Origin: Cafeteria roenbergensis
Taxonomy: Eukaryota > Sar > Bigyra > Bicosoecida > Cafeteriaceae
Reading direction: 5' to 3'
Length of the DNA stretch: 64,000 bases
Assembly: GCA_008330645.1 (NCBI GenBank)
Contig: VLTN01000076.1
Location: forward strand, 84,768 to 148,767
Positions 36,293-64,000 of this stretch are shown here, piece after piece (within the stretch, counting starts at the first letter, position 1; every line of letters starts with the position of its first letter). Both the position numbers and the translations under genes were made by a program. The notes under the pieces are model-generated. The model was not told the origin of the DNA. It saw only the letters and a list, made by a program, of their open reading frames with translations, and ran no database searches.

Positions 36293-36335
36293 GGGGGGGG
36301 GGGGGGTGCTTACAACTCGTGTCACCACTCCACAC
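36293..36335 (-). mobile_element. Retroelement mini-remnant (copy 0)
   Basis: A 14-G run followed by a segment resembling the family 3' end (G run, then ACTCGTGTCACCACTCCACAC against ACTCGCGTCACCATACCACAC). Only about 43 bp survive before copy 1 begins. Identity is diverged, so this is a tentative call. Confidence 0.45.
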
Positions 36336-43608: not shown

Positions 43609-43673
43609 CTGTATTCAGCCCGTATCTGAACTGTCCGGAAACGCCTCCGATTCGCCCTGGTGCGTGTGATCGT

Positions 43674-43932: not shown

Positions 43933-44067
43933 TGTTATAGTTTAATATATTGCCCAAATATGGTGATATTTCAGCGCCGGGCAAAAATGTGTGTATAGTA
44001 CTATACACACATTTTTGCCCGGCGCTGAAATATCACCATATTCAGCAATATACTAAACTATAACAGT
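43931..44067. repeat. Long inverted repeat (palindrome) centred at 43,999/44,000
   Basis: Arms of about 67 bp meet head to head with no spacer at TAGT|ACTA. About 45 bp per arm from the centre outward (through GTGTGTATAG, GCCGGGCAAAAAT and GATATTTCAGC) are perfectly complementary. A short diverged patch (GCCCAAAT against GCTGAAT) shifts register by one base, and the outer GTTATAGTTTA blocks pair again with one mismatch. The transcript or single strand would form a very stable hairpin. Confidence 0.95.
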
Positions 44068-44621: not shown

Positions 44622-45184
44622 ATGGATGAACATCGTTGGGGGGGGTCGACAACTCGCGTAACCATGCCACACACTCGATTCACAGACTCACCAATCACCA
44701 ATCCAGCAACTCCATCACCGATGAATCACAAACCGCGCCAAACCCGCAATCCCAAGTCTCAAGTCCCAGATCCCTGCCATCACACTGCCACGAGTCGCCA
44801 CTCAGCCGCCCCTGCTCACCGCATACGCTCCACCTGCTGTCGCAGGTACTGCGTCTGCCCGATCAGCTGGGTCGCCAGTCCCTTGGCGATGACCTCGTTC
44901 AGCCTCGACAGCCAGCGGAAGGCCCAGCGCGCACGCTCCCTCGGCCGGTCGCCGAAGGCCGTGTCCGCCACCTTCTTGAGGAAGGCGAAGGCCGCCGGTC
45001 CCATGCGTCCCGTGGTCGTGACGACGAAGGGCACAATGGAGCTCAAGTTGTCCTTTGTAGCTGAGCTCTTCTTGTACTCCCTCATCTTGTCATTCTCACG
45101 GCGCTCGAGAAAGGCGTCCATGCTCTGCAGGCCCTGCGTCACGTAGGACTTGCTCACCGCCGAGGTGATATGCACATCGACGAG
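44622..45184 (-). mobile_element. Retroelement copy 5, 5'-truncated (0.56 kb)
   Basis: Starts ATGGATGAACATCGTTGGGG after the AT-rich island and includes the C-terminal 113 or so codons (stop 44,816-44,818). It ends at CGACGAG (45,184), immediately followed by the 3' terminus of copy 6. Confidence 0.88.
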
Positions 45185-46467
45185 TGAACATCGTTGGGGG
45201 GGGTCGACAACTCGCGTAACCATGCCACACACTCGATTCACAGACTCACCAATCACCAATCCAGCAACTCCATCACCGATGAATCACAAACCCCGCCAAA
45301 CCCGCAATCCCAAGTCTCAAGTCCCAGATCCCTGCCATCACACTGCCTCGAGTCGCCACTCAGCCGCCCCTGCTCACCGCATACGCTCCACCTGCTGACG
45401 CAGGTACTGCGTCTGCCCGATCAGCTGGGTCGCCAGTCCCTTGGCGATGACCTCGTTCAGCCTCGACAGCCAGCGGAAGGCCCAGCGCGCACGCTCCCTC
45501 GGCCGGTCGCCGAAGGCCGTGTCCGCCACCTTCTTGAGGAAGGTGAAGGCCGCCGGTCCCATGCGTCCCGTGGTCGTGACGACGAAGGGCACAATGGAGC
45601 TCAAGTTGTCCTTTGTAGCTGAGCTCTTCTTGTACTCCCTCATCTTGTCATTCTCACGGCGCTCGAGAAAGGCGTCCATGCTCTGCAGGCCCTGCGTCAC
45701 GTAGGACTTGCTCACCGCCGAGGTGATCTGCACGTCGACGAGACGGGTGGTCTCGAAGTCGACGTGCACCCGCAGGTCTGGTCGCTTGCGCGCGGCCTCG
45801 CTGGACCCCGGCTGGGACCCGAAGCGCGCCTGCCCGTCCTGCCAGCTGGAGGGCTCCACCACCGACTGTAGTCCCGCCGAGCGCACCGCCGCGTGCAGGA
45901 CGTCACGGACGTCGTTGTGCGCCCGGATGGTGGAGCCCTTGCCGCAGCGGCAGCGCGCCAGGTGGTGCGCCACGCCCGAGACCCCGCCGATGTGGACGGT
46001 GCCTCTCGCGGTGGTGTCCCGCTGCACGCACGCGCAGTTGATCGACACGCCGTCCGGCACCACGTGGTCGGCCTCGGAGGTTCCGATGCGGGTAGCGGGT
46101 GACCACCGCGAACTCCTCGTCCGTGAGCCCGCGGGGTCCCATCATCGTGTTGCGGAGCCAGTAGTGCGTTCCCGGCACGCACGCCTCTCGGAACGCGACC
46201 AGATCGCTCATGACGCGCAGCATGGCCGGGTCGTCGATGTTGGCGATGCGCTTCTCCGGCGTGTTGCCCTTGGCCATCGCCTCGGCCCTGCAGCGCGCTG
46301 TGCAGGCCCTGCGCGCCTTGGCCAGACGGCGCAGGAAGACGCACTCGTGCTTGATGCGCAGCATGTCGTCGTGGTGCAGCACCATCTTGCGCTGCCAGGG
46401 CGCCTGGACTTGCCCGTTCGCGAGCTTCACCACCCCGTCGCCGTACAGGCACCTGCGGAGCTTGGCC
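45185..46467 (-). mobile_element. Retroelement copy 6, 5'-truncated (1.28 kb)
   Basis: Opens the first unit of the 8.85-kb tandem duplication. The coding frame on the minus strand (stop 45,374-45,376) runs to about 46,065. There an extra G (near 46,090) and, further up, a 3-bp insertion (near 46,265) change it relative to other copies, so this copy is broken. The upstream part (about 46,405-46,440) is diverged from copies 1 and 13, suggesting a subfamily. Similarity stops at CTTGGCC (46,467). Confidence 0.85.
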
Positions 46468-47664
46468 CGCAGCCACCCCGGCAGCTGATGTTTGGCGGCA
46501 GGGGCGCGGGCGATCGTGCTCCGCGAGGTCTCGCGTTGCCTGCCGATCCCGGGACGTGGTTGTCCTCGTCTCTTCTGCCCGGCTCATCGACGCCTCCGGA
46601 AGAACTGGATGCTTGCCCGTCCGCGAATTGAATCGCCCTGCCGGGCAGGCCCGAATGCGCGACAATCGCCAAGGCCGAAGCACGAGACGACTCTCCCCAA
46701 TCGCGACGCCACGCTGAGCGCAATTCCTACTCCGTGCCCCGGGCAACCTCGTGCCCCCACGGCCTCTGTGCGCAAGGCCTAGTCCCTTCCGTTCTCTGTC
46801 CATTGCAGGACGCGTGGGTCCTGGCAGCACGCCGAGTCGTCGACTCCAGCCAACTGAAGCCATGAGCCTCCACCAGCCGATCCTATTCGCTTATGCCTTC
46901 GGCCAGGCATCGCTTGCCCACCTTCCTCGGAAACAGCTGTGGCTGGGCTGAGCCCCGAAGCAACGCGAAGGAGACGCAGCATCTGCCACTCGCTACCTCC
47001 TCGTGTGCTCCGCGGGGCGGTGGGCGAGCACCGCAAGCCGAGTGCTGGGCATAGACTGCACAGGTTCACGACAATGCGCTGATTGCCCACCCGAAATTCC
47101 TGGCCGCGTCTCCCATGCTCTGGGGCGGGGCTTGCGGCGGCGGCGCCTCCGGCGGGGTTGCCTCCCCATCCAGCGCGATTTCAGGGTCCTGGCCCCCAAC
47201 ATTTGCTTTGATGCAACAAAAGTCTCGCAGGGGAGGGAGTGGGCGCTGGGTGTGGGGCTGGAGCGGTCCTGGGGCGGTTGGAGAGCCTGCGCGACAGCGG
47301 CGACAAGCAGTGCCTGTGCTTCGCAACGCCCGCCAAACGCGCAAGCCACACTCAAGCACGACCACACCATGCGCCATGCGCGAAAACAAGTATTGCCGGA
47401 TCTGCGGGTCGACTGGGCGATGACCGGGCTGCAGGCGCGGCCCTGTTCGGCCGGCTGTGCGTTGTTGGTTTGCTCGCGGTTTCTGCTGGAATTCGCTGGC
47501 TCTGCTCTCGACTGATTCCGGCAGAGTTACAGGCCAGCACAAAAACGTGACGACGGCGAACTAGCCGAGCGCACTCGGCCTTGCTGCGCGGACCTCCCGG
47601 AGGCCGCCCGCGACGCTGAGAGGCCCACAGAGGGCAACCTTCTTCGCTTTGTGCCGAGCTTGCC
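46468..47664. other. Spacer upstream of NTPase-nuclease gene copy A
   Basis: About 1.2 kb, repeated at 55,319-56,514. Short frames on both strands lack homology. It probably carries the promoter and 5' UTR of the downstream gene. No retroelement similarity. Confidence 0.5.
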
Positions 47665-50600
47665 ATGCTGGCGCGGGGCTTACGGGGCGCAGGGCGGGCG
47701 TCGCGGGCTGTGCTGCCTCCAAGCGCCCGGACGGCCGCTGCGGTTCGGCAGCATTGCCTCAAGCCAGTCGCCGTCCTGAGCGGCGCAGGCGAGCCCCTGT
47801 GCCGCACCCTTTGGAGCGCAGGTTTCTTGGTGCTTCAGGACAGCACGGGCGGCGCGCGGCCCGTCCTGGTGCGCCCTCTGAGCTCCGCGGCGTCGGAGAC
47901 TGACTCCCACCCGTTTTCGACTGACGCCGAGCGGTGGGCTGACAACCACCTGCCCAGAGAATCTGCAAGGCGCGACGCCGTTGGTCTGGCTCTGGGAGCA
48001 CTCTCGCTGTCCTCCGTCTCGCCGACGGACGCTCGAGCGCGGGTGGAGCTCGGGCAAGACTTTTTTTTGTTCATTCTGGAAATGGCTGCCGTCAAGGGGC
48101 TCCGCTCTGCCGACAACGAGGACATCGTCGAGCTACTTGGAAGGCTCGGCACCGCCAGCATGGAGCTCGCCCACTGCACCGACATTGACGCCGTGCTTCA
48201 GCATGCCGGGGTGACTCTGGCAATGCCCGGCGGCGAGGCGCAGCTGGCCAAGTGGCACCGACTGGGCCACCTGCAGTCCGTGGCCGGAGGCTTCGCAGAG
48301 GTCATGGCCAAGCCGTCCACCATCGCCACAGTGCAGAAGCATGCAGACTTCTTGCTGGCAAGGGCTGAGGAGCAGGCCGCGAAGGAAAAGCGCGAGGCCG
48401 AGGAGCAGGCCGCGAAGGAAAAGCGCGAGGCCGAGGAGCAGGCCGAGAAGGAAAAGCGCGAGGCCGCAGAGCAGGCCGCGAAGGCCAAGCGCGAGGCCGC
48501 GGAGCAGGAACTCCGGCTTGTTCCAGCTCGTAGGCTGTTTCTGGAGTTGGACCGCCACTTAATGGTCATCGACGGACGGCAAGGCCAAGCTCTCTTGGAT
48601 GTGCTCATCCTAAGAGTTCAGGCAGCGCTGGTCAGCAGGCTGCCTGCCGACAGCCCGATGATGGCTGTCCTGCCATCGAACGTCGTTCACCTCAGCCGGC
48701 GGCTCAAGCAGCGGTCAGTCGATAACGCCTGCAAGCTAGCAGAGGATGCCGAAGCTGCAGTCCCTCCCGAGGACCTGTCCCAAGCTGCCCTCACGGCCGT
48801 GGCGGAGCGCCTGGTAGTCAAGTTCAAATCGTGGAATGACCCCAGTTGGCTGGCATGTCAACCCGCGCTTTTTGATATCCTTCACTGCACGGCAACGACA
48901 TGTCCGCCGGTGTTCTTGACTGCACAGGACAGGCATGCCGATGCCGCGAAGAGCCACCTGCCTGACGTTTACTTCAGGAGGCGCACAGAGCCTAGGGGCT
49001 CTTGGATCAGCGAAGCATTCAGTTGCGCGAGGCCGAGTCCACCAGGCAACTCTTTCCTTTTCACGGGACCCCGTGGCGCTGGCAAGACGCAGACGCTGCT
49101 CTCGATGGGTTTCGCCAACGCATTCTTGGGAGCCGCTCACGGCGAACAGCGAAGCACTGTGATTGTGTTGCGGCCCACAGACACCCTGGAGCAGACGGAC
49201 GACAGCCTTGGTGGCAAGGTGTCGCAGCTCGCAAGCCGCATCGTTGAAGCTGCGGCCCGAGATCCGAGCAACGTGGTGTGGAGAGCCATGCTTCGGCTGG
49301 GGTACCTCGACGCTCACCTGGGTGGTATGTCTGGGCTTGAGGTCGCCGCGGAGCGCATGGAGGCGATGACAACGATCCCTTGGACTGCAATTGGCGAGGA
49401 CGACAGAACCATGTTCGGAGACATGCTCGACGGCCACAAGCGATCTCCCAAGATCAGCATGACCCTGTGCTTCGACGAGAGCCAGAACTACTACGTTGAC
49501 CGCCGCGTCCACCACAAGTTTACCCGCTTTGTGGAGGACCACTACGAATCGAACATCCCGATGCGGATCGTGATCACTGGCAGCTCGGCCCTTCTTCCCC
49601 GCCTCATTCGCGGATCGGCGCATGATGAACTGTTGACGCAGCGCCTCAACGCGCACAGTGTCGCCGTCCGCGAGAGCGGCGTGAGTGCGCCAGAATTTGC
49701 GGTCGCAGCGGCACCCGGATCCTCGTTCAGCTCGTTCGGGCACGCATTCAACATGAGTAAGATGAGAACCGTCACTACGATCCCCTATCTCGAGGAATCC
49801 GAGGGTCTGGCCTTCCTACGGACGTCCCAGCGGCAGCACTCCGCGGAGTTGACGCGCTTCATGGAAACCTTGCCCGAGTCGGACGTTGAGGCCAAGGCGA
49901 TGATCGCGCCCTTGGTGGCGGCATCCAACGGCAACCCACGAGCTTTCCTTCAGATGAAGTGGAGCGCGGTAGTCGAAGGTGGTCTTGAGAAAGCGGCCGA
50001 AGCTGCCATCAATGATCAGTACCGACGTTTCCGGGAGCTCGTTGCCGCTGCCAAGCCCGTCCCCGAACGCCTGGTTCTCCTAAAGGCAGTTGGGCTGGCC
50101 TTTCTCGGGAAGCTCAAGCCGGAGGTATCCGGCTCAAGCACCGGGCGCACGAAAGCAGGCGGAATGCCAGTGCAACAGTCGAGCTCGATCGTCGATTCGT
50201 CGTCCGGCTTCGTAACACCGCTCTCGCTATTGAGTGCTGCGCTGTCAGCGTCGCAGCGGCTCTTTGGCAAGGACGCTGCGCACACCAAGGAGCTGGAGAG
50301 CTTCATGTCACACTCCAGCAGCAGCGGCAGCACGGCATTGGCAGGTGATGACTTCGAAGCTGCGGCAGACTTTTGGCTTGAAGTCGGCTTCTTTCGGGGC
50401 CGGACTAGCGCACGTTCGCTCGTTCTGCCCGGCGAAGTGTGGACCTCCTTTGCCGTGCAGCTCGTTCTTGCCGGATCTGCTCTCACCTCGGTTGAGTTGA
50501 TGGCCCTGATCAGCCCTTCAAGGCAGGGTCTGAGCGACCACTTCGAGCGCTTGCTCGCGGCCGAGCTGCTCCACAGTGGTTTCCAGGCGTTCGTGTCGGC

Positions 50601-51423
50601 TTGCATGGCCAGGTTTGCGCCAGGGCACGAGTGCTCCGGTAGGCTGAAGGAGCGGCTTGCCGCGACAGCCTCGACGGATGGCGCCGCTGCTGAACTGGTC
50701 AGCCATCGCCATGTCGCCAAGGATGGAGAGACGCTTTCGTCGCCGCCACCCTTGGAGCCAATCATGGTGTGGGGAGGCACAAGCAAGGATCCCAAAGTTG
50801 TGGCGGCTGACAAGGACGATGAGCCGATCAAGCCGTGGCAGCTCCTCAAGCATCGGCACGACTGGGGCGGCGTGGATGTCATGGTTGTGTTTGCGGTCAA
50901 GGACTGCGTTTACGTGCTTCTGCTCCAGTCCAAGGCATTTGAGCCATCGCTGTCCAGTGCGTCGAAGGAAATGACTGCCGCGACTGCGGCGAACTTGCAG
51001 ACTGGCATGTTCGAAATGGCGACGGAGCTGCGGAGTGCCGTCGTTCCAAGTCCTGATCCCGGCAAGGCCTGGAGCGACATCCCCGGCAAGCGGTCGCTGA
51101 TAGCCAGAATCATGGACAATGACATTGCCAAGGGATGCACCGAAATGGTCGTGTGCTCGTCTGTCATCACCACGAAGCTCATCAAGCAGGCCAGACCAGG
51201 CTGCGACACCGACCTGTTCAGCATTCCCGAGTCACCGGAGACCTTCCTTCTCGAAGAAGGCGAGCCAAGCGCCACTGGCAGCGCCGCAGCGAAGTCACGG
51301 AGCGTCCAGGTGTGGGACCTGCGGCTGCCTGCAGACAGCCTGGTGCTGCGAAAGTTGATGACGAAGGATATGGAAGATGCGTTGAGTGTGTGTGGGATTG
51401 AGCTGCCCAGCAGCGCCGAATGA
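47665..51423 (+). CDS. CR/Crinkler-like P-loop NTPase with C-terminal PD-(D/E)XK-like nuclease, copy A
   Basis: 1,252 residues, one exon. Residues 1-35 are Arg/Ala-rich, like an organelle-targeting or header segment. At about 233-275 five near-identical Glu/Lys/Ala units (EEQAAKEKREA) form a charged coiled coil. The NTPase follows: Walker A GPRGAGKT at 468-475 and Walker B MTLCFDES at 599-606, with a following ITGSS (about 637) that resembles a sensor motif. A helical middle region comes next. A C-terminal domain has D1066-WGGVD1071-VMVVF...VYVLLLQ1088-S-K1090, the spacing and strand pattern of a PD-(D/E)XK nuclease (D...QxK variant). This NTPase-plus-nuclease layout is that of the eukaryotic Crinkler/CR effector class thought to derive from transposon-encoded proteins. 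Family assignment is by architecture only. It could act as an intracellular or secreted nuclease effector, or belong to a mobile element. The stop codon overlaps an AATGAACATC motif like the retroelement terminus. Confidence 0.7.
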   Translation: MLARGLRGAGRASRAVLPPSARTAAAVRQHCLKPVAVLSGAGEPLCRTLWSAGFLVLQDSTGGARPVLVRPLSSAASETDSHPFSTDAERWADNHLPRESARRDAVGLALGALSLSSVSPTDARARVELGQDFFLFILEMAAVKGLRSADNEDIVELLGRLGTASMELAHCTDIDAVLQHAGVTLAMPGGEAQLAKWHRLGHLQSVAGGFAEVMAKPSTIATVQKHADFLLARAEEQAAKEKREAEEQAAKEKREAEEQAEKEKREAAEQAAKAKREAAEQELRLVPARRLFLELDRHLMVIDGRQGQALLDVLILRVQAALVSRLPADSPMMAVLPSNVVHLSRRLKQRSVDNACKLAEDAEAAVPPEDLSQAALTAVAERLVVKFKSWNDPSWLACQPALFDILHCTATTCPPVFLTAQDRHADAAKSHLPDVYFRRRTEPRGSWISEAFSCARPSPPGNSFLFTGPRGAGKTQTLLSMGFANAFLGAAHGEQRSTVIVLRPTDTLEQTDDSLGGKVSQLASRIVEAAARDPSNVVWRAMLRLGYLDAHLGGMSGLEVAAERMEAMTTIPWTAIGEDDRTMFGDMLDGHKRSPKISMTLCFDESQNYYVDRRVHHKFTRFVEDHYESNIPMRIVITGSSALLPRLIRGSAHDELLTQRLNAHSVAVRESGVSAPEFAVAAAPGSSFSSFGHAFNMSKMRTVTTIPYLEESEGLAFLRTSQRQHSAELTRFMETLPESDVEAKAMIAPLVAASNGNPRAFLQMKWSAVVEGGLEKAAEAAINDQYRRFRELVAAAKPVPERLVLLKAVGLAFLGKLKPEVSGSSTGRTKAGGMPVQQSSSIVDSSSGFVTPLSLLSAALSASQRLFGKDAAHTKELESFMSHSSSSGSTALAGDDFEAAADFWLEVGFFRGRTSARSLVLPGEVWTSFAVQLVLAGSALTSVELMALISPSRQGLSDHFERLLAAELLHSGFQAFVSACMARFAPGHECSGRLKERLAATASTDGAAAELVSHRHVAKDGETLSSPPPLEPIMVWGGTSKDPKVVAADKDDEPIKPWQLLKHRHDWGGVDVMVVFAVKDCVYVLLLQSKAFEPSLSSASKEMTAATAANLQTGMFEMATELRSAVVPSPDPGKAWSDIPGKRSLIARIMDNDIAKGCTEMVVCSSVITTKLIKQARPGCDTDLFSIPESPETFLLEEGEPSATGSAAAKSRSVQVWDLRLPADSLVLRKLMTKDMEDALSVCGIELPSSAE

Positions 51424-51440
51424 ACATCTGGAAGTGATCG

Positions 51441-51930
51441 AATGAATGAACATCGTTGGGGGGGGTCGAAAACTCGCGTAACCATGCCACACACTCGAGT
51501 CACAGACTCACCAATCACCAATCCAGCAACTCCATCACCGATGAATCACAAACCCCGCCAAACCCGCAATCCCAAGACTCAAGTCCCAGATCATTCCCAT
51601 CACACTGCCTCGAGTCGCCACTCAGCCGCCCCTGCTCACCGCATACGCTCCACCTGCTGCCGCAGGTACTGCGTCTGCCCGATCAGCTGGGTCGCCAGTC
51701 CCTTGGCGATGACCTCGTTCAGCCTCGACAGCCAGCGAAAGGCCCAGCGCGCACGCTCCCTCGGCCGGTCGCCGAAGGCCGTGTCCGCCACCTTCTTGAG
51801 GAAGGCGAAGGCCGCCGGTCCCATGCGTCCCGTGGTCGTGACGACGAAGGGCACAATGGAGCTCAAGTTGTCCTTTGTAGCTGAGCTCTTCTTGTACTCC
51901 CTCATCTTGTCATTCTCACGGCGTTCGAGA
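51441..51930 (-). mobile_element. Retroelement copy 7, 5'-truncated (0.49 kb)
   Basis: Starts 17 bp after the NTPase-nuclease stop codon (ATGAATGAACATCG). Retains the 3' UTR and the last 89 codons (stop 51,636-51,638). Ends at GCGTTCGAGA, directly joined to copy 8. Confidence 0.88.
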
Positions 51931-52979
51931 TGATGAACATCGTTGGGGGGGGTCGAAACCTTGCGTCACCATGCCACACACTCGATTCATAGACTCACCA
52001 ATCACCAATCCAGCAACTCCATCACCGATGAATCACAAACCGCGCCAAACCCGCAATCCCAAGTCTCAAGTCCCAGATCCCTGCCATCACACTGCCTCGA
52101 GTCGCCACTCAGCCGCCCCTGCTCACCGCATACGCTCCACCTGCTGTCGCAGGTACTGCGTCTGCCCGATCAGCTGGGTCGCCAGTCCCTTGGCGATGAC
52201 CTCGTTCAGCCTCGACAGCCAGCGGAAGGCCCAGCGCGCACGCTCCCTCGGCCGATCGCCGAAGGCCGTGTCCGCCACCTTCTTGAGGAAGGCGAAGGCC
52301 ACCGGTCCCATGCGTCCCGTGGTCGTGACGACGAAGGGCACAATGGAGCTCAAGTTGTCCTTTGTAGCTGAGCTCTTCTTGTACTCCCCCATCTTGTCAT
52401 TCTCACGGCGCTCGAGAAAGGCGTCCATGCTCTGCAGGCCCTGCGTCACGTAGGACTTGCTCACCGCCGAGGTGATCTGCACGTCGACGAGACGGGTGGT
52501 CTCGAAGTCGACGTGCACCCGCAGGTCCGGTCGCTTGCGCGCGGCCTCGCTGGACCCCGGCTGGGACCCGAAGCGCGTCTGCCCGTCCTGCCAGCTGGAG
52601 GGCTCCACCACCGACTGTAGTCCCGCCGAGCGCACCGCCGCGTGCAGGACGTCACGGACGTCGTTGTGCGCCCGGATGGTGGAGCCCTTGCCGCAGCGGC
52701 AGCGCGCCAGGTGATGTGCCACACCGGAGACCCCGCCGATGTGGACGGTGCCTCTCGCGGTGGTGTCCCGCTGCACGCACGCGCAGTTGATCGACACGCC
52801 GTCCGGCACCACGTGGTCGGCCTCGGAGGCTCCGATGCGGTAGCGGGTGACCACCGCGAACTCCTCGTCCGTGAGCCCGCGGGGTCCCATCATCGTGTTG
52901 CGGAGCCAGTAGTGCGTTCCCGGCGCGCACGCCTCTCGGAACGCGACCAGGTCGCTCATGACACGCAGCATGGCCGGGT
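51931..52979 (-). mobile_element. Retroelement copy 8, 5'-truncated (1.05 kb)
   Basis: Intact reading frame on the minus strand from the truncated end (about 52,978) to the stop at 52,123-52,125. It includes the Cys/His cluster and the PD...D block. Ends at GGCCGGGT, the same truncation point as copy 9, and is directly followed by GAAATGATGAACATCG of copy 9. Confidence 0.88.
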
Positions 52980-54032
52980 GAAATGATGAACATCGTTGGG
53001 GGGGTCGACAACTCGCGTAACCATGCCACACACTCGATTCACAGACTCACCAATCACCAATCCAGCAACTCCATCACCGATGAATCACAAACCGCGCCAA
53101 ACCCGCAATCCCAAGTCCCAAGTCCCAGATCCCTGCCATCACACTGCCTCGAGTCGCCACTCAGCCGCCCCTGCTCACCGCATACGCTCCACCTGCTGTC
53201 GCAGGTACTGCGTCTGCCCGATCAGCTGGGTCGCCAGTCCCTTGGCGATGACCTCGTTCAGCCTCGACAGCCAGCGGAAGGCCCAGCGCGCACGCTCCCT
53301 CGGCCGGTCGCCGAAGGCCGTGTCCGCCACCTTCTTGAGGAAGGCGAAGGCCGCCGGTCCCATGCGTCCCGTGGTCGTGACGACGAAGGGCACAATGGAG
53401 CTCATGTTGTCCTTTTGTAGCTGAGCTCTTCTTGTACTCCCTCATCTTGTCATTCTCACGGCGCTCGAGAAAGGCGTCCATGCTCTGCAGGCCCTGCGTC
53501 ACGTAGGACTTGCTCACCGCCGAGGTGATCTGCACGTCGACGAGACGGGTGGTCTCGAAGTCGACGTGCACCCGCAGGTCCGGTCGCTTGCGCGCGGCCT
53601 CGCTGGACCCCGGCTGGGACCCGAAGCGCGTCTGCCCGTCCTGCCAGCTGGAGGGCTCCACCACCGACTGTAGTCCCGCCGAGCGCACCGCCGCGTGCAG
53701 GACGTCACGGACGTCGTTGTGCGCCCGGATGGTGGAGCCCTTGCCGCAGCGACAGCGCGCCAGGTGATGCGCCACGCCGGAGATCCCGCCGATGTGGACG
53801 GTGCCTCTCGCGGTGGTGTCCCGCTGCACGCACGCGCAGTTGATCGACACGCCGTCCGGCACCACGTGGTCGGCCTCGGAGGCTCCGATGCGGTAGCGGG
53901 TGACCACCGCGAACTCCTCGTCCGTGAGCCCGCGGGGTCCCATCATCGTGTTGCGGAGCCAGTAGTGCGTTCCCGGCGCGCACGCCTCTCGGAACGCGAC
54001 CAGGTCGCTCATGACACGCAGCATGGCCGGGT
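52980..54032 (-). mobile_element. Retroelement copy 9, 5'-truncated (1.05 kb)
   Basis: Nearly identical to copy 8 with the same 5' break, so the two probably arose by local tandem duplication. It carries an extra T (GTCCTTTTGTAG, near 53,412) that frameshifts the terminal domain. It ends unit A of the large duplication. Confidence 0.87.
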
Positions 54033-55318
54033 GAAATGATGAACATCGTTGGGGGGGGTCGACAACTCGCGTAACCATGCCACACACTCGATTCACAGAC
54101 TCACCAATCACCAATCCAGCAACTCCATCACCGATGAATCACAAACCCCGCCAAACCCGCAATCCCAAGTCTCAAGTCCCAGATCCCTGCCATCACACTG
54201 CCTCGAGTCGCCACTCAGCCACCCCTGCTCACCGCATACGCTCCACCTGCTGTCGCAGGTACTGCGTCTGCCCGATCAGCTGGGTCGCCAGTCCCTTGGC
54301 GATGACCTCGTTCAGCCTCGACAGCCAGCGGAAGGCCCAGCGCGCACGCTCCCTCGGCCGGTCGCCGAAGGCCGTGTCCGCCACCTTCTTGAGGAAGGTG
54401 AAGGCCGCCGGTCCCATGCGTCCCGTGGTCGTGACGACGAAGGGCACAATGGAGCTCAAGTTGTCCTTTGTAGCTGAGCTCTTCTTGTACTCCCTCATCT
54501 TGTCATTCTCACGGCGCTCGAGAAAGGCGTCCATGCTCTGCAGGCCCTGCGTCACGTAGGACTTGCTCACCGCCGAGGTGATCTGCACGTCGACGAGACG
54601 GGTGGTCTCGAAGTCGACGTGCACCCGCAGGTCTGGTCGCTTGCGCGCGGCCTCGCTGGACCCCGGCTGGGACCCGAAGCGCGCCTGCCCGTCCTGCCAG
54701 CTGGAGGGCTCCACCACCGACTGTAGTCCCGCCGAGCGCACCGCCGCGTGCAGGACGTCACGGACGTCGTTGTGCGCCCGGATGGTGGAGCCCTTGCCGC
54801 AGCGGCAGCGCGCCAGGTGGTGCGCCACGCCCGAGACCCCGCCGATGTGGACGGTGCCTCTCGCGGTGGTGTCCCGCTGCACGCACGCGCAGTTGATCGA
54901 CACGCCGTCCGGCACCACGTGGTCGGCCTCGGAGGTTCCGATGCGGTAGCGGGTGACCACCGCGAACTCCTCGTCCGTGAGCCCGCGGGGTCCCATCATC
55001 GTGTTGCGGAGCCAGTAGTGCGTTCCCGGCACGCACGCCTCTCGGAACGCGACCAGATCGCTCATGACGCGCAGCATGGCCGGGTCGTCGATGTTGGCGA
55101 TGCGCTTCTCCGGCGTGCCCTTGGCCATCGCCTCGGCCCTGCAGCGCGCTGTGCAGGCCCTGCGCGCCTTGGCCAGACGGCGCAGGAAGACGCACTCGTG
55201 CTTGATGCGCAGCATGTCGTCGTGGTGCAGCACCATCTTGCGCTGCCAGGGCGCCTGGACTTGCCCGTTCGCGAGCTTCACCACCCCGTCGCCGTACAGG
55301 CACCTGCGGAGCTTGGCC
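54033..55318 (-). mobile_element. Retroelement copy 10, 5'-truncated (1.29 kb)
   Basis: Counterpart of copy 6 in unit B, but without the extra bases: an uninterrupted 351-codon frame runs on the minus strand from 55,284 to 54,229. It contains the basic region, Cys/His cluster, PD...D block and terminal VTTTGRMGPAAF domain. Similarity to copies 1 and 13 ends at CTTGGCC (55,318). Confidence 0.88.
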
Positions 55319-56514
55319 CGCAGCCACCCCGGCAGCTGATGTTTGGCGGCAGGGGCGCGGGCGATCGTGCTCCGCGAGGTCTCGCGTTGCCTGCCGATCC
55401 CGGGACGTGGTTGTCCTCGTCTCTTCTGCCCGGCTCATCGACGCCTCCGGAAGAACTGGATGCTTGCCCGTCCGCGAATTGAATCGCCCTGCCGGGCAGG
55501 CCCGAATGCGCGACAATCGCCAAGGCCGAAGCACGAGACGACTCTCCCCAATCGCGACGCCACGCTGAGCGCAATTCCTACTCCGTGCCCCGGGCAACCT
55601 CGTGCCCCCACGGCCTCTGTGCGCAAGGCCTAGTCCCTTCCGTTCTCTGTCCATTGCAGGACGCGTGGGTCCTGGCAGCACGCCGAGTCGTCGACTCCAG
55701 CCAACTGAAGCCATGAGCCTCCACCAGCCGATCCTATTCGCTTATGCCTTCGGCCAGGCATCGCTTGCCCACCTTCCTCGGAAACAGCTGTGGCTGGGCT
55801 GAGCCCCGAAGCAACGCGAAGGAGACGCAGCATCTGCCACTCGCTACCTCCTCGTGTGCTCCGCGGGGCGGTGGGCGAGCACCGCAAGCCGAGTGCTGGG
55901 CATAGACTGCACAGGTTCACGACAATGCGCTGATTGCCCACCCGAAATTCCTGGCCGCGTCTCCCATGCTCTGGGGCGGGGCTTGCGGCGGCGGCGCCTC
56001 CGGCGGGGTTGCCTCCCCATCCAGCGCGATTTCAGGGTCCTGGCCCCCAACATTTGCTTTGATGCAACAAAAGTCTCGCAGGGGAGGGAGTGGGCGCTGG
56101 GTGTGGGGCTGGAGCGGTCCTGGGGCGGTTGGAGAGCCTGCGCGACAGCGGCGACAAGCAGTGCCTGTGCTTCGCAACGCCCGCCAAACGCGCAAGCCAC
56201 ACTCAAGCACGACCACACCATGCGCCATGCGCGAAAACAAGTATTGCCGGATCTGCGGGTCGACTGGGCGATGACCGGGCTGCAGGCGCGGCCCTGTTCG
56301 GCCGGCTGTGCGTTGTTGGTTTGCTCGCGGTTCTGCTGGAATTCGCTGGCTCTGCTCTCGACTGATTCCGGCAGAGTTACAGGCCAGCACAAAAACGTGA
56401 CGACGGCGAACTAGCCGAGCGCACTCGGCCTTGCTGCGCGGACCTCCCGGAGGCCGCCCGCGACGCTGAGAGGCCCACAGAGGGCAACCTTCTTCGCTTT
56501 GTGCCGAGCTTGCC
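55319..56514. other. Spacer upstream of NTPase-nuclease gene copy B
   Basis: Same sequence as 46,468-47,664 except for one base deletion in a T run (near 56,331). No independent gene seen. Confidence 0.5.
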
Positions 56515-59500
56515 ATGCTGGCGCGGGGCTTACGGGGCGCAGGGCGGGCGTCGCGGGCTGTGCTGCCTCCAAGCGCCCGGACGGCCGCTGCGGTTCGGCA
56601 GCATTGCCTCAAGCCAGTCGCCGTCCTGAGCGGCGCAGGCGAGCCCTTGTGCCGCACCCTTTGGAGCGCAGGTTTCTTGGTGCTTCAGGACAGCACGGGC
56701 GGCGCGCGGCCCGTCCTGGTGCGCCCTCTGAGCTCCGCGGCGTCGGAGACTGACTCCCACCCGTTTTCGACTGACGCCGAGCGGTGGGCTGACAACCACC
56801 TGCCCAGAGAATCTGCAAGGCGCGACGCCGTTGGTCTGGCTCTGGGAGCACTCTCGCTGTCCTCCGTCTCGCCGACGGACGCTCGAGCGCGGGTGGAGCT
56901 CGGGCAAGACTTTTTTTTGTTCATTCTGGAAATGGCTGCCGTCAAGGGGCTCCGCTCTGCCGACAACGAGGACATCGTCGAGCTACTTGGAAGGCTCGGC
57001 ACCGCCAGCATGGAGCTCGCCCACTGCACCGACATTGACGCCGTGCTTCAGCATGCCGGGGTGACTCTGGCAATGCCCGGCGGCGAGGCGCAGCTGGCCA
57101 AGTGGCACCGACTGGGCCACCTGCAGTCCGTGGCCGGAGGCTTCGCAGAGGTCATGGCCAAGCCGTCCACCATCGCCACAGTGCAGAAGCATGCAGACTT
57201 CTTGCTGGCAAGGGCTGAGGAGCAGGCCGCGAAGGAAAAGCGCGAGGCCGAGGAGCAGGCCGCGAAGGAAAAGCGCGAGGCCGAGGAGCAGGCCGAGAAG
57301 GAAAAGCGCGAGGCCGCAGAGCAGGCCGCGAAGGCCAAGCGCGAGGCCGCGGAGCAGGAACTCCGGCTTGTTCCAGCTCGTAGGCTGTTTCTGGAGTTGG
57401 ACCGCCACTTAATGGTCATCGACGGACGGCAAGGCCAAGCTCTCTTGGATGTGCTCATCCTAAGAGTTCAGGCAGCGCTGGTCAGCAGGCTGCCTGCCGA
57501 CAGCCCGATGATGGCTGTCCTGCCATCGAACGTCGTTCACCTCAGCCGGCGGCTCAAGCAGCGGTCAGTCGATAACGCCTGCAAGCTAGCAGAGGATGCC
57601 GAAGCTGCAGTCCCTCCCGAGGACCTGTCCCAAGCTGCCCTCACGGCCGTGGCGGAGCGCCTGGTAGTCAAGTTCAAATCGTGGAATGACCCCAGTTGGC
57701 TGGCATGTCAACCCGCGCTTTTTGATATCCTTCACTGCACGGCAACGACATGTCCGCCGGTGTTCTTGACTGCACAGGACAGGCATGCCGATGCCGCGAA
57801 GAGCCACCTGCCTGACGTTTACTTCAGGAGGCGCACAGAGCCTAGGGGCTCTTGGATCAGCGAAGCATTCAGTTGCGCGAGGCCGAGTCCACCAGGCAAC
57901 TCTTTCCTTTTCACGGGACCCCGTGGCGCTGGCAAGACGCAGACGCTGCTCTCGATGGGTTTCGCCAACGCATTCTTGGGAGCCGCTCACGGCGAACAGC
58001 GAAGCACTGTGATTGTGTTGCGGCCCACAGACACCCTGGAGCAGACGGACGACAGCCTTGGTGGCAAGGTGTCGCAGCTCGCAAGCCGCATCGTTGAAGC
58101 TGCGGCCCGAGATCCGAGCAACGTGGTGTGGAGAGCCATGCTTCGGCTGGGGTACCTCGACGCTCACCTGGGTGGTATGTCTGGGCTTGAGGTCGCCGCG
58201 GAGCGCATGGAGGCGATGACAACGATCCCTTGGACTGCAATTGGCGAGGACGACAGAACCATGTTCGGAGACATGCTCGACGGCCACAAGCGATCTCCCA
58301 AGATCAGCATGACCCTGTGCTTCGACGAGAGCCAGAACTACTACGTTGACCGCCGCGTCCACCACAAGTTTACCCGCTTTGTGGAGGACCACTACGAATC
58401 GAACATCCCGATGCGGATCGTGATCACTGGCAGCTCGGCCCTTCTTCCCCGCCTCATTCGCGGATCGGCGCATGATGAACTGTTGACGCAGCGCCTCAAC
58501 GCGCACAGTGTCGCCGTCCGCGAGAGCGGCGTGAGTGCGCCAGAATTTGCGGTCGCAGCGGCACCCGGATCCTCGTTCAGCTCGTTCGGGCACGCATTCA
58601 ACATGAGTAAGATGAGAACCGTCACTACGATCCCCTATCTCGAGGAATCCGAGGGTCTGGCCTTCCTACGGACGTCCCAGCGGCAGCACTCCGCGGAGTT
58701 GACGCGCTTCATGGAAACCTTGCCCGAGTCGGACGTTGAGGCCAAGGCGATGATCGCGCCCTTGGTGGCGGCATCCAACGGCAACCCACGAGCTTTCCTT
58801 CAGATGAAGTGGAGCGCGGTAGTCGAAGGTGGTCTTGAGAAAGCGGCCGAAGCTGCCATCAATGATCAGTACCGACGTTTCCGGGAGCTCGTTGCCGCTG
58901 CCAAGCCCGTCCCCGAACGCCTGGTTCTCCTAAAGGCAGTTGGGCTGGCCTTTCTCGGGAAGCTCAAGCCGGAGGTATCCGGCTCAAGCACCGGGCGCAC
59001 GAAAGCAGGCGGAATGCCAGTGCAACAGTCGAGCTCGATCGTCGATTCGTCGTCCGGCTTCGTAACACCGCTCTCGCTATTGAGTGCTGCGCTGTCAGCG
59101 TCGCAGCGGCTCTTTGGCAAGGACGCTGCGCACACCAAGGAGCTGGAGAGCTTCATGTCACACTCCAGCAGCAGCGGCAGCACGGCATTGGCAGGTGATG
59201 ACTTCGAAGCTGCGGCAGACTTTTGGCTTGAAGTCGGCTTCTTTCGGGGCCGGACTAGCGCACGTTCGCTCGTTCTGCCCGGCGAAGTGTGGACCTCCTT
59301 TGCCGTGCAGCTCGTTCTTGCCGGATCTGCTCTCACCTCGGTTGAGTTGATGGCCCTGATCAGCCCTTCAAGGCAGGGTCTGAGCGACCACTTCGAGCGC
59401 TTGCTCGCGGCCGAGCTGCTCCACAGTGGTTTCCAGGCGTTCGTGTCGGCTTGCATGGCCAGGTTTGCGCCAGGGCACGAGTGCTCCGGTAGGCTGAAGG

Positions 59501-60273
59501 AGCGGCTTGCCGCGACAGCCTCGACGGATGGCGCCGCTGCTGAACTGGTCAGCCATCGCCATGTCGCCAAGGATGGAGAGACGCTTTCGTCGCCGCCACC
59601 CTTGGAGCCAATCATGGTGTGGGGAGGCACAAGCAAGGATCCCAAAGTTGTGGCGGCTGACAAGGACGATGAGCCGATCAAGCCGTGGCAGCTCCTCAAG
59701 CATCGGCACGACTGGGGCGGCGTGGATGTCATGGTTGTGTTTGCGGTCAAGGACTGCGTTTACGTGCTTCTGCTCCAGTCCAAGGCATTTGAGCCATCGC
59801 TGTCCAGTGCGTCGAAGGAAATGACTGCCGCGACTGCGGCGAACTTGCAGACTGGCATGTTCGAAATGGCGACGGAGCTGCGGAGTGCCGTCGTTCCAAG
59901 TCCTGATCCCGGCAAGGCCTGGAGCGACATCCCCGGCAAGCGGTCGCTGATAGCCAGAATCATGGACAATGACATTGCCAAGGGATGCACCGAAATGGTC
60001 GTGTGCTCGTCTGTCATCACCACGAAGCTCATCAAGCAGGCCAGACCAGGCTGCGACACCGACCTGTTCAGCATTCCCGAGTCACCGGAGACCTTCCTTC
60101 TCGAAGAAGGCGAGCCAAGCGCCACTGGCAGCGCCGCAGCGAAGTCACGGAGCGTCCAGGTGTGGGACCTGCGGCTGCCTGCAGACAGCCTGGTGCTGCG
60201 AAAGTTGATGACGAAGGATATGGAAGATGCGTTGAGTGTGTGTGGGATTGAGCTGCCCAGCAGCGCCGAATGA
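56515..60273 (+). CDS. CR/Crinkler-like P-loop NTPase with C-terminal PD-(D/E)XK-like nuclease, copy B
   Basis: Encodes a 1,252-residue protein identical in translation to copy A, with Walker A at residues 468-475, Walker B at 599-606 and the nuclease-like D1071...Q1088-x-K1090 motif. Codon-level identity is almost complete, with one synonymous change noticed (56,647). This indicates either a very recent tandem duplication or ongoing conversion. Its flanks are the same as those of copy A: a 1.2-kb spacer upstream and a retroelement 17 bp after the stop codon. Reading frame and start choice are as for copy A, the first ATG of the open frame. Confidence 0.7.
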   Translation: MLARGLRGAGRASRAVLPPSARTAAAVRQHCLKPVAVLSGAGEPLCRTLWSAGFLVLQDSTGGARPVLVRPLSSAASETDSHPFSTDAERWADNHLPRESARRDAVGLALGALSLSSVSPTDARARVELGQDFFLFILEMAAVKGLRSADNEDIVELLGRLGTASMELAHCTDIDAVLQHAGVTLAMPGGEAQLAKWHRLGHLQSVAGGFAEVMAKPSTIATVQKHADFLLARAEEQAAKEKREAEEQAAKEKREAEEQAEKEKREAAEQAAKAKREAAEQELRLVPARRLFLELDRHLMVIDGRQGQALLDVLILRVQAALVSRLPADSPMMAVLPSNVVHLSRRLKQRSVDNACKLAEDAEAAVPPEDLSQAALTAVAERLVVKFKSWNDPSWLACQPALFDILHCTATTCPPVFLTAQDRHADAAKSHLPDVYFRRRTEPRGSWISEAFSCARPSPPGNSFLFTGPRGAGKTQTLLSMGFANAFLGAAHGEQRSTVIVLRPTDTLEQTDDSLGGKVSQLASRIVEAAARDPSNVVWRAMLRLGYLDAHLGGMSGLEVAAERMEAMTTIPWTAIGEDDRTMFGDMLDGHKRSPKISMTLCFDESQNYYVDRRVHHKFTRFVEDHYESNIPMRIVITGSSALLPRLIRGSAHDELLTQRLNAHSVAVRESGVSAPEFAVAAAPGSSFSSFGHAFNMSKMRTVTTIPYLEESEGLAFLRTSQRQHSAELTRFMETLPESDVEAKAMIAPLVAASNGNPRAFLQMKWSAVVEGGLEKAAEAAINDQYRRFRELVAAAKPVPERLVLLKAVGLAFLGKLKPEVSGSSTGRTKAGGMPVQQSSSIVDSSSGFVTPLSLLSAALSASQRLFGKDAAHTKELESFMSHSSSSGSTALAGDDFEAAADFWLEVGFFRGRTSARSLVLPGEVWTSFAVQLVLAGSALTSVELMALISPSRQGLSDHFERLLAAELLHSGFQAFVSACMARFAPGHECSGRLKERLAATASTDGAAAELVSHRHVAKDGETLSSPPPLEPIMVWGGTSKDPKVVAADKDDEPIKPWQLLKHRHDWGGVDVMVVFAVKDCVYVLLLQSKAFEPSLSSASKEMTAATAANLQTGMFEMATELRSAVVPSPDPGKAWSDIPGKRSLIARIMDNDIAKGCTEMVVCSSVITTKLIKQARPGCDTDLFSIPESPETFLLEEGEPSATGSAAAKSRSVQVWDLRLPADSLVLRKLMTKDMEDALSVCGIELPSSAE

Positions 60274-60290: not shown

Positions 60291-60780
60291 AATGAATGAA
60301 CATCGTTGGGGGGGGTCGAAAACTCGCGTAACCATGCCACACACTCGAGTCACAGACTCACCAATCACCAATCCAGCAACTCCATCACCGATGAATCACA
60401 AACCCCGCCAAACCCGCAATCCCAAGACTCAAGTCCCAGATCATTCCCATCACACTGCCTCGAGTCGCCACTCAGCCGCCCCTGCTCACCGCATACGCTC
60501 CACCTGCTGCCGCAGGTACTGCGTCTGCCCGATCAGCTGGGTCGCCAGTCCCTTGGCGATGACCTCGTTCAGCCTCGACAGCCAGCGAAAGGCCCAGCGC
60601 GCACGCTCCCTCGGCCGGTCGCCGAAGGCCGTGTCCGCCACCTTCTTGAGGAAGGCGAAGGCCGCCGGTCCCATGCGTCCCGTGGTCGTGACGACGAAGG
60701 GCACAATGGAGCTCAAGTTGTCCTTTGTAGCTGAGCTCTTCTTGTACTCCCTCATCTTGTCATTCTCACGGCGTTCGAGA
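60291..60780 (-). mobile_element. Retroelement copy 11, 5'-truncated (0.49 kb)
   Basis: Unit B counterpart of copy 7, with the same truncation and the same direct join to the next copy. Coding remnant stop at 60,486-60,488. Confidence 0.88.
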
Positions 60781-61829
60781 TGATGAACATCGTTGGGGGG
60801 GGTCGAAACCTTGCGTCACCATGCCACACACTCGATTCATAGACTCACCAATCACCAATCCAGCAACTCCATCACCGATGAATCACAAACCGCGCCAAAC
60901 CCGCAATCCCAAGTCTCAAGTCCCAGATCCCTGCCATCACACTGCCTCGAGTCGCCACTCAGCCGCCCCTGCTCACCGCATACGCTCCACCTGCTGTCGC
61001 AGGTACTGCGTCTGCCCGATCAGCTGGGTCGCCAGTCCCTTGGCGATGACCTCGTTCAGCCTCGACAGCCAGCGGAAGGCCCAGCGCGCACGCTCCCTCG
61101 GCCGATCGCCGAAGGCCGTGTCCGCCACCTTCTTGAGGAAGGCGAAGGCCACCGGTCCCATGCGTCCCGTGGTCGTGACGACGAAGGGCACAATGGAGCT
61201 CAAGTTGTCCTTTGTAGCTGAGCTCTTCTTGTACTCCCCCATCTTGTCATTCTCACGGCGCTCGAGAAAGGCGTCCATGCTCTGCAGGCCCTGCGTCACG
61301 TAGGACTTGCTCACCGCCGAGGTGATCTGCACGTCGACGAGACGGGTGGTCTCGAAGTCGACGTGCACCCGCAGGTCCGGTCGCTTGCGCGCGGCCTCGC
61401 TGGACCCCGGCTGGGACCCGAAGCGCGTCTGCCCGTCCTGCCAGCTGGAGGGCTCCACCACCGACTGTAGTCCCGCCGAGCGCACCGCCGCGTGCAGGAC
61501 GTCACGGACGTCGTTGTGCGCCCGGATGGTGGAGCCCTTGCCGCAGCGGCAGCGCGCCAGGTGATGTGCCACACCGGAGACCCCGCCGATGTGGACGGTG
61601 CCTCTCGCGGTGGTGTCCCGCTGCACGCACGCGCAGTTGATCGACACGCCGTCCGGCACCACGTGGTCGGCCTCGGAGGCTCCGATGCGGTAGCGGGTGA
61701 CCACCGCGAACTCCTCGTCCGTGAGCCCGCGGGGTCCCATCATCGTGTTGCGGAGCCAGTAGTGCGTTCCCGGCGCGCACGCCTCTCGGAACGCGACCAG
61801 GTCGCTCATGACACGCAGCATGGCCGGGT
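60781..61829 (-). mobile_element. Retroelement copy 12, 5'-truncated (1.05 kb)
   Basis: Unit B counterpart of copy 8. Open frame on the minus strand to the stop at 60,973-60,975, again ending at GGCCGGGT and joined to GAAATGATGAACATCG of copy 13. Confidence 0.88.
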
Positions 61830-64000
61830 GAAATGATGAACATCGTTGGGGGGGGTCGACAACTCGCGTAACCATGCCACACACTCGATTCACAGACTCA
61901 CCAATCACCAATCCAGCAACTCCATCACCGATGAATCACAAACCGCGCCAAACCCGCAATCCCAAGTCCCAAGTCCCAGATCCCTGCCATCACACTGCCT
62001 CGAGTCGCCACTCAGCCGCCCCTGCTCACCGCATACGCTCCACCTGCTGTCGCAGGTACTGCGTCTGCCCGATCAGCTGGGTCGCCAGTCCCTTGGCGAT
62101 GACCTCGTTCAGCCTCGACAGCCAGCGGAAAGGCCCAGCGCGCACGCTCCCTCGGCCGGTCGCCGAAGGCCGTGTCCGCCACCTTCTTGAGGAAGGCGAA
62201 GGCCGCCGGTCCCATGCGTCCCGTGGTCGTGACGACGAAGGGCACAATGGAGCTCATGTTGTCCTTTTGTAGCTGAGCTCTTCTTGTACTCCCTCATCTT
62301 GTCATTCTCACGGCGCTCGAGAAAGGCGTCCATGCTCTGCAGGCCCTGCGTCACGTAGGACTTGCTCACCGCCGAGGTGATCTGCACGTCGACGAGACGG
62401 GTGGTCTCGAAGTCGACGTGCACCCGCAGGTCCGGTCGCTTGCGCGCGGCCTCGCTGGACCCCGGCTGGGACCCGAAGCGCGTCTGCCCGTCCTGCCAGC
62501 TGGAGGGCTCCACCACCGACTGTAGTCCCGCCGAGCGCACCGCCGCGTGCAGGACGTCACGGACGTCGTTGTGCGCCCGGATGGTGGAGCCCTTGCCGCA
62601 GCGACAGCGCGCCAGGTGATGCGCCACGCCGGAGATCCCGCCGATGTGGACGGTGCCTCTCGCGGTGGTGTGTCCCGCTGCACGCACGCGCAGTTGATCG
62701 ACACGCCGTCCGGCACCACGTGGTCGGCCTCGGAGGCTCCGATGCGGTAGCGGGTGACCACCCGCGAACTCCTCGTCCGTGAGCCCGCGGGGTCCCATCA
62801 TCGTGTTGCGGAGCCAGTAGTGCGTTCCCGGCACGCACGCCTCTCGGAACGCGACCAGGTCGCTCATGACGCGCAGCATGGCCGGGTCGTCGATGTTGGC
62901 GATGCGCTTCTCCGGCGTGCCCTTGGCCATCGCCTCGGCCCTGCAGCGCGCTGTGCAGGCCCTGCGCGCCTTGGCCAGACGGCGCAGGAAGACGCACTCG
63001 TGCTTGATGCGCAGCATGTCGTCGTGATGCAGCACCATCTTGCGCTGCCAGGGCGCCTCGGTCTGCTCGTTCGCCCGCGCCGTCACCCCGTCGCCGTACA
63101 GGCACTTGCGGAGCTTGGCCTTCAGGTCATCCGACAGCACGCCCAAGGTGTCGGGCAAGAAGCCCTCGAACCCTGTCGCTGCGGCCAGGCAGCGGGCTCC
63201 CTTGCAGGCCCTGATGAACTCCTCCACCAGGTTTGCAGTTGCCTCCATGTCATCCGACGACTCGTCGTCAGATCTGAGCTCCATCATCGCCTCCAGCGCC
63301 AGCTCCTCGATCTCGGCGCGCAGCTCTTCCAGGCCCTCGACAGCCCCCGCGATGTCCGACCTCCACACGTGCGCCAGCTGGTAGCGCTTCTCCACCCTGG
63401 CGGCATGAAGGTCGGCCTCCTTGCCTACGACGCAGTCCTTGTCCGGCCTGAAGTACCGTGCCTCGGTGCAGGCGTCCTTGTACTCCTTGCTGTCCCGCTC
63501 GTAGTCCCGGTAGGCTCCCTTGGCGACCTCCTCGCATCGCAGCAGGATGTCGCCCACCTCCTTGGTCGCATCGCTGCGGTTTGCGCGCTTCAGCGCCCGC
63601 CTCACGAGTTTCTTGAGCGAGATGCCCTTCCAGTTGGGGTCGTTGCCGTCCGCGTCCGCGTCGGGTCCGTCCCTGGCCAACCCGATCGCCGGCGTTCGCC
63701 TGACCGAGTAGACCTGTGCCGCATCCGCTCTCGGCTGTGCGGCATCAGATGTCTCTTGGCCGGTTGGAGCGCCAGCCGCACTAGCTGCCGCTGCGCCGCC
63801 GCCGCCCGTCGTCATCTCGGTCGCCGCTCCCGCCGTGCTGGCGGCAGCCGCACCTCCACCGCCCGTCTGGCCTCCGCCTGTCGGTGTTGGCTGATGCCCC
63901 GGTTCAGCCGCTCCCTCCGTACCGCTGACGAGCCACCCATCCAGCGTGCCCGCAGGCTGCTGCCCATGCGCCGGGCCCTCCTCGCAGTCCTCCTTGGACT
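61830..64000 (-). mobile_element. Retroelement copy 13, longest copy, runs off the window
   Basis: At least 2.17 kb and continuing beyond the right edge. The minus-strand coding region is open from 64,000 down, with in-frame ATG at 63,815. It shows an N-terminal Gly/Ala/Thr-rich segment, then a charged helical region (NWKGISLKKLVRRALKRANRSD; ATKEVGDILLRCEEVAKGAY), the acidic patch seen in copy 1, the basic region, Cys/His cluster and PD...D block. Small insertions relative to other copies (about 62,758, 62,670, 62,266, 62,130) shift the frame several times, so this copy is damaged, or the assembly has indel errors. No reverse-transcriptase motif is visible inside the window; it would lie further upstream in the element. 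Confidence 0.82.
62109..64000 (-). pseudogene. Frameshifted retroelement polyprotein fragment (copy 13)
   Basis: The coding part of copy 13. The frame from the right window edge is in register with the family protein down to LTDEEFA (near 62,758). An extra C then moves it out of register, a two-base insertion (near 62,670) returns it, and a T insertion (near 62,266) breaks the last domain. The family's normal stop lies at 62,026. The frameshifts are judged against copies 1, 8 and 10, which agree with each other. Confidence 0.6.

Follow-up and report, generated by a model that had tools for sequence, protein, structure and literature searches.

The CR (Crinkler-RHS) proteins are presented in PMC5289972 as a class in which some members carry C-termini composed of an NTPase, a helix-turn-helix and a restriction endonuclease (REase), and which also occurs in free-living eukaryotes. 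The related retrotransposon hot spot (RHS) proteins of trypanosomes are described as having a conserved N-terminal and a variable C-terminal part, many pseudogenes, mosaic structures produced by recombination and an association with retroelements, with about 30% of the Trypanosoma cruzi genes being subtelomeric (PMC7563717, PMC3418195). In fungi, the telomeric retroelements of Fusarium oxysporum with a restriction enzyme-like (REL) endonuclease are reported to occur frequently at the same chromosome ends as genes for telomere-linked helicases, and the elements FoTeR and MoTeR to have their 5' end toward the chromosome end (PMC12857005). Here, we analysed a 64,000-nucleotide stretch of the Cafeteria roenbergensis genome (the window), which forms the final 64 kb of contig VLTN01000076.1 (C76) and carries, near the contig end, two genes for one identical protein, both belonging to a recombining family that resembles each of these systems in part. 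We somewhat favour reading this family as lineage-specific, NTP-gated nucleases engaged in genome conflict.

The two open reading frames (ORFs) of the window (Table 1) encode one identical 1,252-residue protein, for which the standard code and an intron-free reading suffice. Their DNA differs at 1 of 3,759 nucleotides (position 47797), and because both proteins are identical this difference is synonymous. Both genes are held in a tandem duplication of approximately 8.85 kb (45185–54039 versus 54040 onward), the alignment of which contains 5 mismatches and 9 gaps of 1–4 bases across 8,847 aligned bases. The protein begins with a header, which is followed in turn by a coiled-coil repeat, a STAND/ORC-like NTPase and, at the C-terminus, a predicted nuclease with a D...QxK motif of the PD-(D/E)XK type, an architecture that we assign with confidence; a winged-helix region apparently follows the NTPase in this body type (A). 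The initial annotation had already described the Walker A/B core, the charged repeats, the D...QxK motif and the presence of the identical protein twice, and all of these were confirmed, the charged repeats at approximately residues 229–280.

Walker A and Walker B with its acidic pair, as typical of STAND/AAA+ proteins, were recognised both by motif and by profile. Walker A was recovered in none of 20,000 shuffles of the window protein, and two members of the family, P0013 and P0020, exceeded the cut-off of the Pfam model AAA_16, in agreement with the P-loop NTPase proposed earlier; the window's own protein gave a sub-threshold AAA_14 match only. The C-terminal motif of the window protein reads D-W-G-G-V-D...Q-S-K (residues 1066–1090) and corresponds to the D...(D/E/Q)xK active-site motif of PD-(D/E)XK enzymes. 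In an alignment of 10 bodies, seven of which share 17–19% identity with the window body, 23 columns were invariant, including Walker A, Walker B, D1066, G1069, D1071, Q1088 and K1090. The evidence for the nuclease motif is the stronger because it recurs in the same place in bodies that are only 17–19% identical. In addition, the top eight structural matches of the C-terminal model were restriction-type nucleases, in line with the fold expected at the outset, although fold support was weak and model confidence not high. Two points weigh against this assignment: the nuclease pattern arose in 127 of 20,000 shuffles of the window protein, so that in a single protein it is weak evidence, and neither of the two AlphaFold models was of high confidence. 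A search with PADLOC returned no match for the window body and weak matches only for the other nine aligned bodies (best E 0.0016). The protein is likely to be an active, NTP-regulated nuclease. Bacterial STAND anti-phage ATPases likewise couple an NTPase to a PD-(D/E)XK-type nuclease; their effector is usually N-terminal, whereas here it is C-terminal.

Sub-threshold profile matches to DAP3 and ORC-CDC6-like families, together with origin recognition complex (ORC) chains among the structural matches, could be taken to indicate a housekeeping ATPase acting in origin recognition or as mitochondrial DAP3. This explanation is barely credible given the many copies, the swappable bodies, the C-terminal nuclease motif, the bias toward contig ends and the lack of a whole-length match. 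The initial annotation had named a confident match to a non-nuclease fold or to such a family as evidence that would overturn it; neither was obtained, with the AlphaFold models not being of high confidence.

The genome contains at least 32 loci of this family, bearing out the expectation of multiple homologues. This number was derived from 45 protein-search matches, 43 of which were merged by hand while two short coiled-coil matches (E 0.67 and 0.8) were left out, and it is a lower bound since the search scored 37 of 68 candidates. Four loci carry body A as a full-length ORF without interruption (two on C76, one each on C20 and C30), and at the other seven of its 11 loci it is frameshifted or cut (C32, C52, two on C27, C29, C72 and C39). 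At the remaining 21 loci, similarity to the window protein was limited to residues 1 to approximately 300 at most, mostly within other long ORFs. The bodies read at these loci correspond to types B/B2 and C1/C2, whereas those on C62, C34, C59, C85, C51, C4 and C46 were left unread; each body type has uninterrupted genes. All named protein relatives (21 of 22, P0009 being the remaining one) are from Cafeteria roenbergensis; homologues span four locus-tag series (FNF27, FNF28, FNF29 and FNF31) and, where named by NCBI, are called “hypothetical protein”. The public models P0002, P0003 and P0006 lack the Walker A stretch, though the genomic ORF or its close relatives contain it, and a wrongly called intron probably explains this. 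The missing Walker A in some public models may explain why the family has gone unnoticed; no title or abstract describing it was found in the open-licence literature searched. Another public model, P0010 (1,937 residues), joins the family header and nuclease motif to Clu/TPR-type domains and probably represents two genes fused by annotation.

Bodies A, B/B2 and C1/C2 are all preceded by the same header, and the non-A bodies keep Walker A, Walker B and the GxD...QxK motif. Across 63 pairs of unlike body type, synonymous divergence (dS) was 0.08–0.34 (median 0.21) in header residues 73–228, as opposed to 1.68–3.18 (median 2.12, 7 of 63 pairs saturated) in the bodies. Headers that share a body type were no closer (median dS 0.23, 15 pairs). 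These are simple Nei-Gojobori estimates with the five body types kept apart and the B locus L031 left out. In a header tree of 19 rows (16 different), restricted to loci with a known body and with B2 kept apart from B, the body types were intermixed on supported branches. Approximately unbiased (AU) tests rejected a single clade for A (p-AU 0.0013), B (0.00044) and C (5.7e-6); the tests were run after the tree had been seen, with the body types as test groups and C1 and C2 pooled. Based on the low header dS versus the high body dS and on the AU rejections, headers and bodies have been reassorted, the bodies being old and the headers young. The DNA in common extends from the coiled-coil repeats back over the upstream region, and at six loci outside body A (L017, L018, L020, L024, L025 and L030) it reaches the adjoining truncated retroelement. 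The header and its upstream region thus act as a cassette, with the join at the coiled-coil repeats.

The genes lie inside retroelement arrays, as first proposed: the window contains 12 exact 15-base retroelement tails versus 0.00 expected, and the repeats on either side derive from a REL-type element without long terminal repeats (non-LTR), of which they are copies truncated at the 5' end. Reverse transcriptase and REL were read in two separate element copies. A long copy elsewhere (L094) matched RVT_1 (E 2.6e-21), and a copy in the window contains a Cys/His stretch followed by R-P-D...D-V-Q-I, which we read as similar to the REL endonucleases of MoTeR and FoTeR. The element shares with these fungal elements the reverse transcriptase, the REL-like Cys/His and R-P-D...D signature, 5'-truncated copies and a 5' end directed toward the contig end, with contig ends standing in for chromosome ends; in contrast, no TTAGGG or TTTAGGG telomeric-repeat arrays were found in the assembly, and the likeness concerns the flanking element, not the family gene. 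The first 60 bases of contig C7 (L057), one of 40 contig starts examined, carry a degenerate telomere-like ACCCTAACCTAACCC and thereby speak against telomeres made purely of retroelements.

Contig-end location applies both to the element and to the genes, although some rows scored as left ends may be small contigs, since contigs without a retrieved length were counted as large. Among the best 100 of 258 retroelement tails, 90 were no more than 20 kb away from a contig end and had their 5' side outward, two were at an end but reversed and eight were interior. Of 80 retroelement protein matches, 67 were at ends, all 67 in the same orientation, 12 were on small contigs and one was interior; this search scored 77 of 529 candidates, and copy number is therefore a lower bound. 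REL-type copies in window positions 36321–64000 and at other contig ends follow the same pattern, being concentrated at ends with the 5' side outward. As for the family itself, 20 of 32 loci fall into the outermost 20 kb of a contig, where at most approximately 18% of the genome lies (an upper bound worked out by hand as 167 contigs × 40 kb / 36.3 Mb). Transcription runs toward the nearer contig end at 24 of 32 loci, and at 16 of the 20 near-end loci.

Of 20 gene 3' ends examined, 17, spread over all body types, have a retroelement tail that starts 0–102 nucleotides from the stop codon; the other three (one A, two B) showed no tail within 400 nucleotides. The 20 ends represent loci whose C-terminus was recognisable in retrieved DNA, with up to two tail mismatches accepted, and exclude C32, where a tail is present, and two B loci broken near their end. 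Ten offsets from the stop codon were recorded (0, 4, 18, 20, 24, 26, 34, 78, 86 and 102), and in four body A copies the first three bases of the tail are the stop codon itself. The different offsets indicate repeated events. Copies with the same offset are probably related by descent, as twin and near-copy loci share offsets, and some offsets may result from later small changes.

The enrichment and orientation at contig ends and the joins at the stop codon, along with the pairing of REL retroelements and telomere-linked helicases at the same ends reported for Fusarium oxysporum (PMC12857005), could point to genes linked to telomeres in the manner of these helicases, in which case the protein would act on the ends of chromosomes or on the arrays of the retroelement. 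We consider such a role quite unlikely: location alone does not establish a function, 12 of the 32 loci sit deeper than 20 kb inside a contig, and the presequence-like start of the protein, if real, points away from the nucleus.

Selection was assessed from the ratio of nonsynonymous to synonymous divergence (dN/dS), which was 0.35–0.44 between intact body A genes (in a run with B/B2 and C1/C2 pooled and L031 labelled as unknown), had a median of 0.47 within body types and was below 1 in header residues 73–228 and in the other bodies. These computed values correspond to purifying selection on both header and body, and they imply that the protein has served a useful purpose. They also bear on the possibility that these are subtelomeric passengers, once useful or selfish genes that serve no role in the host today and are carried along as retroelement arrays recombine with one another. 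The proportion of disrupted body A loci, the location near contig ends and the recent tandem duplication fit this possibility; however, together with the dN/dS values, the retention of catalytic residues in divergent bodies and the uninterrupted genes in each body type render it unlikely.

Comparison with the CR class revealed a conserved header before diverse C-terminal modules, a P-loop NTPase followed by an REase-superfamily nuclease (both recognised by motif, the NTPase also by profile and the nuclease fold weakly), and multiple, recombining copies. It is the design of a header with swappable bodies that constitutes the real likeness. However, comparison with Pfam profiles linked no part of the family to a described CR domain, and the family carries a retroelement tail at the stop codon and resides in a free-living bacterivore. 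The Crinkler Ubl/LFLAK header (PF20147) was not among the matches of P0001 at E ≤ 10, nor among the matches listed at E ≤ 1 for the header piece and five family proteins; the RHSP domain (PF07999) was absent from the matches of P0001 at E ≤ 10 and of the 10 bodies at E ≤ 1. Because these Pfam models give no match, the Crinkler (CR) membership suggested by the initial annotation was not supported, nor was membership in the RHS family, and we refer to the family as CR-like, membership being unproven. The same results bear on the idea that the protein is a CR effector which is exported and enters prey, competitors or other cells. The CR-like header before a toxin-like body would suit such a protein, as pathogen CR headers are thought, according to PMC5289972, to serve translocation. 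Apart from the missing Crinkler header match, residues 1–80 show by eye no hydrophobic signal-peptide core and the organism is a bacterivore, so we regard export as a remote prospect.

With trypanosome RHS genes, the family shares the conserved N-terminal and variable C-terminal parts, the location at ends, pseudogenes, mosaics and a tie to retroelements. The RHS ATP-binding motif, in contrast, lies in the conserved N-terminal part, whereas the NTPase of the window family is part of the variable body. In RHS genes, moreover, retroelements insert into the coding sequence downstream of the ATP-binding motif; in the window family the element instead borders the stop codon, and these joins are only an analogy to the insertion hot spot. 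T. cruzi RHS proteins are reported to be placed in the nuclear region and to be of unknown function, and the likeness therefore gives the window family no function.

Residues 1–72 evolve differently from the remaining header. Their dN/dS of 1.17 indicates that the amino acids are nearly free, whereas the reading frame is kept, with 2 gap events in 216 bp versus 75 in the adjacent upstream 415 bp and 32 in the preceding 550 bp (17 pairs). This combination is the pattern that a targeting presequence would be predicted to show. Acidic variants (1 of 66 versus 8.8% expected) add weak support, weak because acidic residues do occur: position 25 most often holds Asp, and 17 of 18 rows retain Glu 43 and Asp 59. 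On these grounds, together with the arginine-rich start and a basic V-R-x-L-S-S stretch, residues 1–72 might constitute a mitochondrial presequence of an organelle-directed nuclease. We view this as very unlikely, since a genome of 70% GC yields starts rich in arginine and alanine by composition, the compared pairs have common ancestry so that the counts overstate the contrast, acidic residues are present at the three positions given above, and many public models start downstream. An extension of this idea, an innate “suicide nuclease” system in which the presequence would direct the NTPase-nucleases with their swappable bodies into the mitochondrion or some other compartment, sensed infection would turn on the nuclease and kill the infected cell, and subtelomeric arrays would shuffle the modules like parasite antigens, is a speculative long shot.

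Under the genome-conflict reading that we favour, one common header and coiled coil is joined to one of several old bodies. Ectopic recombination within the end-located REL-type arrays would copy the genes and join headers to different bodies, and the arrangement itself suggests that retroelements drive duplication. Ligand sensing, NTP binding and oligomerisation would form a switch that turns on the nuclease, a working mode as thought for CR proteins with NTPase-REase modules. The nuclease would then act on intracellular nucleic acid, most likely that of invading viruses or mobile elements, and the diversity of bodies may reflect changing targets. A role in conflict or defence is, on its own, a tentative proposal that we rate as plausible but somewhat short of even. 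A CR/RHS-like recombining NTPase-nuclease family is thus now found in a free-living bacterivore. Cafeteria, the species being called C. burkhardae in PMC8547959, is described as the host of CroV and mavirus (PMC6972860, PMC8547959), and so offers a virus-host model for testing whether such proteins originated as systems of defence or conflict rather than as effectors of parasites. The stop codons of this one family, joined in varied ways to a retroelement that is oriented toward contig ends, also provide a counterpart in a free-living organism to the trypanosome “retrotransposon hot spot”.

Table 1. Positions of the two genes, their motifs and the flanking retroelement fragments in the window (aa, amino acids; nt, nucleotides).
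Feature	Position	Strand	Remarks
Retroelement fragment upstream of copy 1	45185..46480	-	5'-truncated; REL-like Cys/His and R-P-D...D-V-Q-I; 5' limit approximate
Copy 1 upstream stretch	46480..47664	+	Common to loci of other body types; start approximate, by eye
Gene copy 1	47665..51423	+	1,252 aa; header, coiled coil, NTPase and PD-(D/E)XK-type nuclease (predicted); body type A
Copy 1 residues 1–72	47665..47880	+	Presequence-like; final stretch basic, conserved V-R-x-L-S-S
Copy 1 residues 73–228	47881..48348	+	Header common to all body types; dN/dS 0.5–0.7
Copy 1 residues ~229–280	48349..48504	+	KREAEEQA coiled-coil repeats; header likeness between body types stops here
Copy 1 Walker A GPRGAGKT, residues 468–475	49066..49089	+	Motif
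Copy 1 Walker B Asp-Glu, residues 604–605	49474..49479	+	Invariant in 10 of 10 aligned bodies
Copy 1 C-terminal domain, residues 930–1252	50452..51420	+	Modelled as PD-(D/E)XK-like
Copy 1 nuclease motif D1066..G1069-x-D1071..Q1088-x-K1090	50860..50934	+	Motif and 10-body alignment
Retroelement fragment	51447..51933	-	Tail starts 26 nt from first base of copy 1 stop codon
Retroelement fragment	51934..52986	-	5'-truncated
Retroelement fragment	52987..54039	-	5'-truncated
Retroelement fragment upstream of copy 2	54040..55335	-	5' limit approximate
Gene copy 2	56515..60273	+	Protein identical to copy 1; 1 synonymous difference
Copy 2 Walker A	57916..57939	+	Copy 1 position + 8850
Copy 2 nuclease motif	59710..59784	+	Copy 1 position + 8850
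Retroelement fragment	60297..60783	-	Tail starts 26 nt from first base of copy 2 stop codon
Retroelement fragment	60784..61836	-	5'-truncated
Longest retroelement copy beside the genes	61837..64000	-	Open to contig end; relatives at many contig ends

Other features of the window lie outside the duplicated region. Positions 41470–43659 contain approximately 16 units of a 126-bp tandem repeat with a core that is 87–95% alike, which overlaps a 1,547-residue open frame at 38965–43608. A long, near-perfect AT-rich palindrome, seen by eye at approximately 43934–44066 and centred near 44000, adjoins the 2 kb of lowest GC content in the window (0.57 at 44001–46000). A tRNA-Leu (CAA) gene was identified at 6183–6263.

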